Origin: Planctomycetota bacterium
GTDB taxonomy: Bacteria > Planctomycetota > Phycisphaerae > Sedimentisphaerales > Anaerohalosphaeraceae
Direction: 5' to 3'
Length of the DNA stretch: 42,719 nt
NCBI GenBank assembly: GCA_023143375.1
Contig: JAGLHQ010000011.1
Location: 1 to 42,719, forward strand
In this document: piece by piece, positions 37,999-38,914 of the stretch
Numbering within the stretch: position 1 is the first letter of the stretch
How the letters are laid out: each line of letters starts with the position of its first letter
Notes under the pieces: generated by a model
Told to the model about the DNA's origin: nothing
Databases searched by the model: none
What the model saw: only the letters and a program-made list of their open reading frames with translations
Made by a program: the position numbers and the translations under genes

Positions 37999-38038
37999 GT
38001 TTTTTCTTTACATATTATCAAAGATGTGCCAATATTAA

Positions 38039-38230
38039 TGTGGGGTGGCGGAATAGGTAGACGCTAGACGCTGATAACGTCGAGAAGTAAAGGACGGAGA
38101 TGAACCCTTCGAGGGCTAAATAATTCTCCAAATCGTCCGCTTCAAGAAAAACATGGGCTGTTCCTAGGTGGCTAAAGCCGGTGTTGATTAAGGAAGACTA
38201 TGTAGGGTGCAAATCCCTACCCCTTACACT
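38039..38230 (+). ncRNA. large tRNA-like structured RNA / leader with Leu-type D-arm, GAT anticodon loop, long structured variable region and T-arm
   Basis: TGTGGGG TGGCGGAATAGGTAGACGC T AGACG-CTGATAA-CGTCG ... GAAG/CTTC, GGACG/CGTCC, GAGA/TCTC, CCCT/AGGG helices ... TAGGG-TGCAAAT-CCCTA CCCC TTACA. Confidence 0.6.
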
Positions 38231-38245
38231 TAAAAAGGAGGACAC

Positions 38246-38467
38246 ATGGCAACGCCCATAGCAAAGATACTCAAGAAGCTCGACATGACGGCTTTGGCTC
38301 TCAGTGACGCGCTCGATCTCAGCGATACGACGGTCTACAAATGGACGTACTCGAAGGCTAGGCAGGGCACGGGCGGAAACATACCGCCGAAATATCACAG
38401 GCCGATCATGAGGCTCGCCAAGAAGAAGAAGGTCGAGCTAACGCCGTCAGACTTCGTGGCGCTGTAG
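38246..38467 (+). CDS. small HTH (Cro/YdaS-like) protein
   Basis: ALALSDALDLSDTTVYKWTYSKARQGTGGNIPPKYHRPIMRLAKKK; RBS AAAAAGGAGG. Confidence 0.65.
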   Translation: MATPIAKILKKLDMTALALSDALDLSDTTVYKWTYSKARQGTGGNIPPKYHRPIMRLAKKKKVELTPSDFVAL

Positions 38468-38494: not shown

Positions 38495-38914
38495 ATGGAA
38501 CCAGACCCATCGTTAATTTTAACTGTAGGCTTGCCACGCTCAGGCAAAAGCACATGGGCGAAAAAGCAAGGGCATCCAATAGTCAATCCTGATTCAATCC
38601 GCCTAGCACTACATGGTGAGCGTTTTCTGCCTGAAGCAGAGCCAATGATATGGATGATTGTTCGTTATATGATACGGGCGTTATTTCTTGCCGGTCATAA
38701 AACGGTTATTCTTGACGCCTGCAATACAAAAGCAAAACGGCGAGACCCATGGATGGAGTTTTGCGGTCAATATGGATATATATACAAAATAGAGCTATTC
38801 AAAGCAACACCTCAAGTATGTATCCAGAGAGCGCTAGAGATGAAAGACAAAGAGATCATACCCGTCATTAATAGAATGGCGAAATCATCCGACGTGCCTT
38901 TTGGCTCTTTTTAA
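38495..38914 (+). CDS. P-loop kinase, polynucleotide-kinase-like
   Basis: LILTVGLPRSGKSTWAKKQGHPIVNPDSIRLALHG...VILDACNT. Confidence 0.75.
   Translation: MEPDPSLILTVGLPRSGKSTWAKKQGHPIVNPDSIRLALHGERFLPEAEPMIWMIVRYMIRALFLAGHKTVILDACNTKAKRRDPWMEFCGQYGYIYKIELFKATPQVCIQRALEMKDKEIIPVINRMAKSSDVPFGSF

Follow-up and report, generated by a model that had tools for sequence, protein, structure and literature searches.

Among the closest described counterparts of the phage element considered here is canonical bacterial tRNA-Leu, a class II tRNA. Common to both are the D-arm sequence, T8, A14, A15, G18, G19, T54, C56 and A58, a 7-bp acceptor stem and a long region between the D-arm and the T-arm. The family to which the element belongs differs in having a T-stem of 6 bp and not 5, G55 and not U55, and an insert of 8–192 nt; it is without a conserved anticodon arm, CCA is not encoded and the nucleotide at position 73 is not fixed. 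Neither the Rfam tRNA model (RF00005) nor ARAGORN gives the element a score as a canonical tRNA, and the 5-bp T-stem with U55 and the conserved anticodon arm with a 5-bp stem are both missing.

tmRNA (ssrA) is, as is generally known, another RNA in which a tRNA-like chassis has its anticodon arm replaced by a large inserted domain. However, members of the family keep the D-stem and have no shared tag frame or pseudoknots, and their inserts, which go down to 8 nt, are mutually non-homologous; there was no tmRNA call in the window (the whole stretch of DNA analysed, 42,719 nt) either from the tmRNA mode of ARAGORN or from Rfam, and tmRNA was rejected. The stack of acceptor and T-stem, 13 bp in all, is shared with tRNA-Sec (selC), but the split is 7 + 6 and not 8 + 5, the D-stem is short and of Leu type, and the UCA anticodon of tRNA-Sec is absent. 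Bacterial Y RNAs (YrlA) are well known as noncoding RNAs that mimic the tRNA elbow. On inspection they are set apart by layout, since their tRNA-like module is permuted, on a Ro-binding stem, with the chain ends elsewhere, whereas the ends of the present element form an acceptor stem.

Recruitment of tRNA-processing enzymes would be shared with tRNA-like structures of viruses and other noncoding RNAs that mimic tRNA (PMC4810234), though these are eukaryotic or plant-viral, lack a hypervariable insert and are of unrelated origin. ROOL and GOLLD are RNAs of unknown function often found near tRNA islands (PMC12286853). They and drum are, like the family, structured phage RNAs, but they are unrelated to it in sequence and structure and do not overlap the element.

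The element at the head of a phage operon

The contig is that of a phage, with genes for a P22-type portal, terminase subunits, a major head protein, RecE/RecT-like proteins and a primase; neither circularity nor terminal repeats were found in it. On the + strand at 38039–38229, at the head of an operon that follows a divergent intergenic region and lies between early genes, a complete tRNA-like chassis can be read directly: acceptor stem, tRNA-Leu-type D-arm and T-arm, with a small hairpin plus a 118-nt structured insert standing in for the anticodon and variable arms. The initial annotation had placed a large tRNA-like RNA with a D-arm of tRNA-Leu type at 38039–38230, limits that prove nearly exact, and had remarked on an oversized region between D-arm and T-arm; both points are supported. 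The features are as follows.

38007..38036, + strand: promoter-like site directly upstream (TTTACA, 18 nt, AATATT), a weak consensus match at 9 of 12 positions
38039..38045, + strand: 5′ strand of the acceptor stem (TGTGGGG); the acceptor pairs are 89–99% paired, by many pair types, in 251 non-redundant relatives
38046..38047, + strand: T8 (38046) and G9 (38047), the invariant tRNA-core linker (T8 in 347/347, G9 in 316/316)
38048..38064, + strand: tRNA-Leu-type D-arm, GCG-GAATAGGTAGA-CGC, with a D-stem that covaries in relatives
38067..38081, + strand: small hairpin with a 4-bp stem and a 7-nt loop (GACG-CTGATAA-CGTC) where a tRNA has its anticodon arm; relatives do not conserve it
38082..38199, + strand: hypervariable insert, the putative payload, with a predicted fold of two hairpin domains; no relative sharing it was found among the family inserts
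38201, + strand: T48, invariant (100% of 251 non-redundant relatives), which would make a Levitt pair with A15
38202..38220, + strand: T-arm, with a 6-bp stem GTAGGG/CCCTAC (38202–38207/38215–38220) and a loop TGCAAAT (38208–38214) that contains G55
38221..38228, + strand: 3′ strand of the acceptor stem, CCCTTACA, with one bulged U (38224 or 38225), from sequence and fold
38229, + strand: discriminator position 73, a C; CCA is not encoded
38246..38467, + strand: small downstream ORF of 73 aa, with its RBS, AGGAGG, about 8 nt after the element

The junction between insert and T-stem is AT, and the 6-bp T-stem stacks directly on the acceptor stem. A T-arm had been correctly recognised in the initial annotation, but with a stem of 5 bp; the sixth pair is a family trait. 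What had been taken for a TT irregularity of the acceptor is a one-base bulge in this copy and no trait of the family. The helices drawn earlier within the insert are plausible folds of this single copy, with which the minimum free energy prediction agrees in part. The folding energy of the element is unremarkable (z = −1.05, with 30 of 200 shuffles equally good) and does not set it apart from shuffles. Thermodynamic stability was accordingly rejected as evidence, and the case for the element rests on sequence comparison.

ARAGORN called neither a tRNA nor a tmRNA at the element. Rfam had no match at the element at gathering scores and, at E ≤ 10, neither a tRNA-type match nor a convincing match to any other RNA. 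Two promoter-like sites were found in the region as against 0.7 expected. The 73-aa ORF has no match in Pfam or PHROG. The second gene downstream (window 38495–38911) encodes a polynucleotide-kinase-like AAA_33 protein. In T4 such a kinase is used in tRNA repair; a link to the RNA here would be conjecture.

A family on a common chassis

In a first distant search, of phage records, matches were confined to the D-arm and T-arm and came from Lactiplantibacillus plantarum, L. curvatus and Bacillus phages, in one case with both arms inside a single 94-nt stretch. At the matched places the chassis was the same, the middles were unrelated and nothing was annotated. Each pattern scan of viral contigs gave at least 120 matches. 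In bacterial and archaeal genomes 97 stretches matched, most of them in Bacillota (Levilactobacillus, Listeria, Paenibacillus, Bacillus, Weissella, Leuconostoc and clostridial MAGs); the few matches in MAGs of other phyla are possibly phage contigs or contamination. In all, at least 372 elements with different inserts, 316 of them non-redundant, were recovered from phage, prophage and bacterial contigs, which is a lower bound on prevalence, as the scans used exact loops and variants were missed. No second copy was found in the host assembly, by search or by a pattern search with a narrower gap range, and the pattern is absent from 100 related genomes. Named phages in which the D-arm occurs include EFDG1 (Enterococcus), LP-101 and LP-037 (Listeria), LN34 (Leuconostoc), phiJL-1 and LP65 (L. 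plantarum) and phi3T (Bacillus); the element itself was read in six, LN34, EFDG1, LP-101, phiJL-1, LP-037 and phi3T, where it lies near 50.3 kb of KY030782.

T8, G9, A14, A15, G18, G19 and T48 are invariant in the family, the T-loop is TGCAAAT and a 6-bp T-stem lies under a 7-bp acceptor; CCA is encoded in only 1 of 251 elements, and the anticodon is not conserved. The residues of a tRNA core and elbow are present (T8-A14, A15-T48, G19-C56 and T54-A58), those in the loops being fixed by the search pattern. Because that pattern fixed the D-arm and the T-loop, it was on features left free by it that the tests were made; T8 and T48 lie outside it. Of 308 elements, 290 have a T-stem of exactly 6 bp, on which the acceptor stacks without a gap, and acceptor pairing in the 251 non-redundant elements drops after 7 bp. 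Within the D-stem, pair 11-24 is C-G in 259, T-A in 53 and A-T in 1, and pair 10-25 is G-C in 283, A-T in 10 and T-A in 2.

Covariation among homologues, on which the earlier proposal had been made to depend, is overwhelming for the chassis. An alignment of 60 chassis sequences has 96.7% of its pair cells paired, as against 71.6% when shuffled, with double-sided changes at 13 of the 16 pairs; its covariation score is 0.707 compared with 0.197 for shuffled sequences and 0.08–0.15 when the register is slid. An 8 + 5 register, with a 5-bp T-stem, fails, being 65% paired rather than 96.7%; this and the lack of a UCA anticodon led to the rejection of tRNA-Sec. At the level of sequence, these comparisons show the acceptor stem, D-arm and T-arm folding as a tRNA elbow.

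Freedom from T-arm bias was provided by a scan for the D-arm alone. It gave 49 loci with a 6-bp stem and a TGC loop, 8–192 nt separating the arms, and 24 with a 5-bp stem and a TTC loop, 19 of which had a gap of 31–34 nt as in normal tRNA-Leu; three loci belonged to neither group, and for 18 D-arms no T-arm could be scored. A sixth T-stem pair and G55 thus occur together, and set the family apart from tRNA-Leu.

The chimeric Leu/Ile identity suggested by the initial annotation did not survive. The anticodon-like hairpin varies in length, sequence and presence across relatives (at locus L031 there are only 8 nt in its place), so the GAT loop is most likely incidental, and Ile identity was rejected.

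The definition proposed for the family, a Leu-type D-arm, a 6-bp T-stem, a TGCRAAT loop, a stacked acceptor and an insert replacing the anticodon and variable arms, describes the present element. No Rfam 15 match at gathering score overlaps an element in the window or in the 20 + 18 loci compared, and ARAGORN in intron mode called 2 of 249 elements. No description of the family was found in the open-access literature searched (subscription journals and most preprints lie outside it), which makes novelty provisional. All of this points to a phage RNA family that is unrecognised and unannotated in databases. As tRNA annotation tools expect an anticodon, it has been missed in hundreds of genomes, including those of the known phages phi3T, EFDG1, LP-101, LN34, phiJL-1 and Sha1.

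Inserts, and a chromosomal copy in Listeria

The 372 inserts are hypervariable; no relative could be detected for 215, and no class has more than 12 members. Insert helices show clear compensatory changes in two classes, so inserts are structured and selected. In L. plantarum prophages the acceptor, GTGCTTG, is identical and the flanks are similar while the inserts differ, which indicates modular exchange. Some inserts (L144, L178, L198, L161, L189, L134, L067, L240 and L166) contain a second, T-arm-like hairpin (GGTTCNANNCC), followed in some of these by a stem and GTGACGG. A payload class of Listeria phages has the hairpin CTAAGA...TCTTAG in both orientations, L197 and L227 in the one and L165 and L245 in the other; the elements are otherwise near-identical, as though the loop had flipped between the two arms of the hairpin.

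The insert was also considered as an antisense guide. A blastn comparison of 251 inserts with the loci fetched gave no convincing complementarity, and as far as those loci go the idea was rejected; the best hits outside elements were of 16–22 nt (E ~0.001–0.05), apart from one of 104 nt in an element-like variant. Within the window there is no run of 11 nt or more complementary to the insert.

An element is found downstream of azlCD in six Listeria species (L300, L264, L286, L291, L305 and L324) and probably in a seventh (L317), where azlD is matched in part at the edge of the locus. By ORF inspection, azlCD is a branched-chain amino-acid exporter, and proBA-type genes are nearby in the one Listeria locus that was read further. 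This copy has a −10 box and a nearly constant insert sequence, and the stems of its terminators differ in sequence with pairing kept. The Listeria RNA is, to judge from these promoter-like and terminator-like sequences of its own, a chromosomal gene. Its locus is core chromosome, far from phage genes, so the RNA would be useful outside the phage particle, and this speaks against a role in structure or packaging only.

Proposed role and its alternatives

The structure and the family are well supported; for function we infer, with somewhat better than even confidence, a stable, non-decoding RNA that acts in trans, with ends matured by host tRNA enzymes and the insert as its working part. The element belongs to a family of noncoding RNAs carried by phages that is widespread, unannotated and built on a chassis derived from tRNA-Leu. 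Host RNase P at the 5′ end and RNase Z at the 3′ end, with which the anatomy is compatible, may cut it from the primary transcript. Both enzymes recognise or clamp the tRNA elbow (PMC4810234), and by their grip a discrete, stable RNA could be released. This RNA would be barred from translation, and probably from leucylation, by its T-loop with G55, its sixth T-stem pair and its lack of an anticodon; with no conserved anticodon, decoding is impossible. The insert is presumed to be an effector that binds a target in trans. Phages do exchange inserts on a fixed chassis, and in doing so would be exchanging effectors. A natural tRNA scaffold with variable RNA effectors is the most economical reading, and of the roles earlier suggested (riboregulator, decoy, processed RNA) it is processed RNA that fits the anatomy best.

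The weakness of the promoter-like site in the window (9/12) and the position directly before an RBS, as of a possible cis-acting leader, count against this reading, and two further points go against a payload carrier. The D-loop and T-loop are strictly conserved, so that the elbow could itself be the active part, and the payload model alone leaves the 8-nt insert of L031 unexplained. The main rival, unlikely but serious, takes up both: the elbow would titrate or inhibit either a host enzyme that binds tRNA or a defence nuclease directed at tRNA, with the insert adding specificity or bulk. That conservation is far stronger in the chassis than in the insert, that one member is almost insert-free, that real phage tRNAs lie within 1.5 kb of 94 of 372 elements and that degenerate tRNA-like elements are enriched about 30-fold nearby would all be in keeping with such a decoy. 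However, many tRNA-directed effectors are generally known to target the anticodon loop, which is absent here, insert helices covary, as expected of inserts under selection, and the Listeria chromosomal copy persists with a conserved insert.

The genetic setting brings up another rival, which we rate lower again, in which the element acts in cis inside the late transcript, for example by antitermination or as a packaging RNA near cos or pac. Many loci have a late activator (RinA/ArpU-like, ~100 loci), then the element, then an HNH nuclease (81) or terminase (54) gene, mostly on the same strand, and in Leuconostoc phage LN34 and L. plantarum phage phiJL-1 the element is within a few hundred bases of the genome end. 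In the window it stands directly before an RBS, which is compatible with a leader. Elsewhere, however, elements are in tRNA clusters, beside yonN-like genes in SPbeta-type phages, among early genes as in the window, or in the Listeria core chromosome. Moreover, 55 of 266 elements have an intrinsic terminator in the 200 nt downstream, compared with 2 of 266 control stretches, and in many loci it comes directly after the element, in favour of an independent RNA. The idea of a conserved protein partner was rejected, since no neighbour, be it late activator, HNH nuclease or terminase, is universal.

Charging by LeuRS, to give an aminoacyl-RNA for non-ribosomal use or a sensor, is improbable. The D-arm is of Leu type, the Listeria copy adjoins a branched-chain amino-acid exporter, and E. 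coli LeuRS charges tRNA-Leu without its anticodon and variable arms (PMC9976931). Position 73 is A in 53% of the 251 non-redundant elements (A 132, T 70, G 26, C 23), but it is not fixed, and background A is 35%. Leucylation in E. coli requires A73 and G18:U55, and C73, as here, abolishes it in minimal tRNA-Leu (PMC9976931). U55, a part of leucine identity, is G in nearly all members and CCA is not encoded; with position 73 free, G55 makes leucine charging unlikely as a general function. The earlier doubt that this could be an ordinary charged tRNA is upheld by G55, C73, the lack of an encoded CCA and the unconserved anticodon arm.

An ordinary or decaying tRNA, be it an intron-bearing tRNA-Leu or tRNA-Ile, a pseudogene or an attachment-site remnant, would account for the tRNA-Leu sequence features and the cloverleaf-like 5′ half but is scarcely credible in the face of compensatory changes across hundreds of members, the fixing together of the derived traits G55 and 6-bp T-stem, a T-stem and T-loop unlike those of real tRNA-Leu, the rarity of ARAGORN calls, and the lack of any match to group I or other Rfam intron families in the window and 38 loci, by which the intron explanation raised at the outset was rejected.

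If the chassis-plus-payload reading is true, nature has its own version of the tRNA scaffold used as a laboratory trick, and phages have in it a new means of deploying RNA effectors. More broadly, and tentatively, a modular RNA platform may be common to phages of mainly Gram-positive hosts: host tRNA enzymes would mature a fixed tRNA-like chassis, and this would carry swappable structured effectors that undergo arms-race-like diversification. On this view chassis of other kinds exist (mini-tRNAs without an anticodon, and tRNA-like elements that differ in D-arm and insert), and bacteria such as Listeria have domesticated a copy. On the chassis-plus-payload reading, the old puzzle of why phages hold so many odd or degenerate tRNAs becomes testable; for laboratory work on the family, Bacillus phage phi3T and the L. 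plantarum phages are tractable.

Other RNAs are found in the neighbourhood of family members. A ROOL RNA (L142:667–1248) and a drum RNA (L166:2574–2692) are close to members. Just upstream of the family element in L044, L016, L003, L014, L039, L139 and L470 is a mini tRNA-like element with the layout ATCGCTG-TG-GGCTAATTGGTAAGCC-...-GTAGGTTCGARTCCTRC-...GCGAT, which has an acceptor, a D-arm and a canonical T-arm with the anticodon arm absent; the Rfam tRNA model matches its phiJL-1 copy with 42 bits. Further tRNA-like elements that ARAGORN does not call (L061, L093, L200, L087 and L267) have canonical T-loops, other D-arms and inserts, and such elements occur at 0.020 per kb near the family as against 0.0006. 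A Bacteroidota phage, Flavobacterium phage FL-1 (L472:2001–2200), has a tRNA-Leu-like D-arm and a canonical T-arm ~110 nt apart; this is possibly a parallel chassis, and with the other atypical tRNA-like elements it suggests a wider set.
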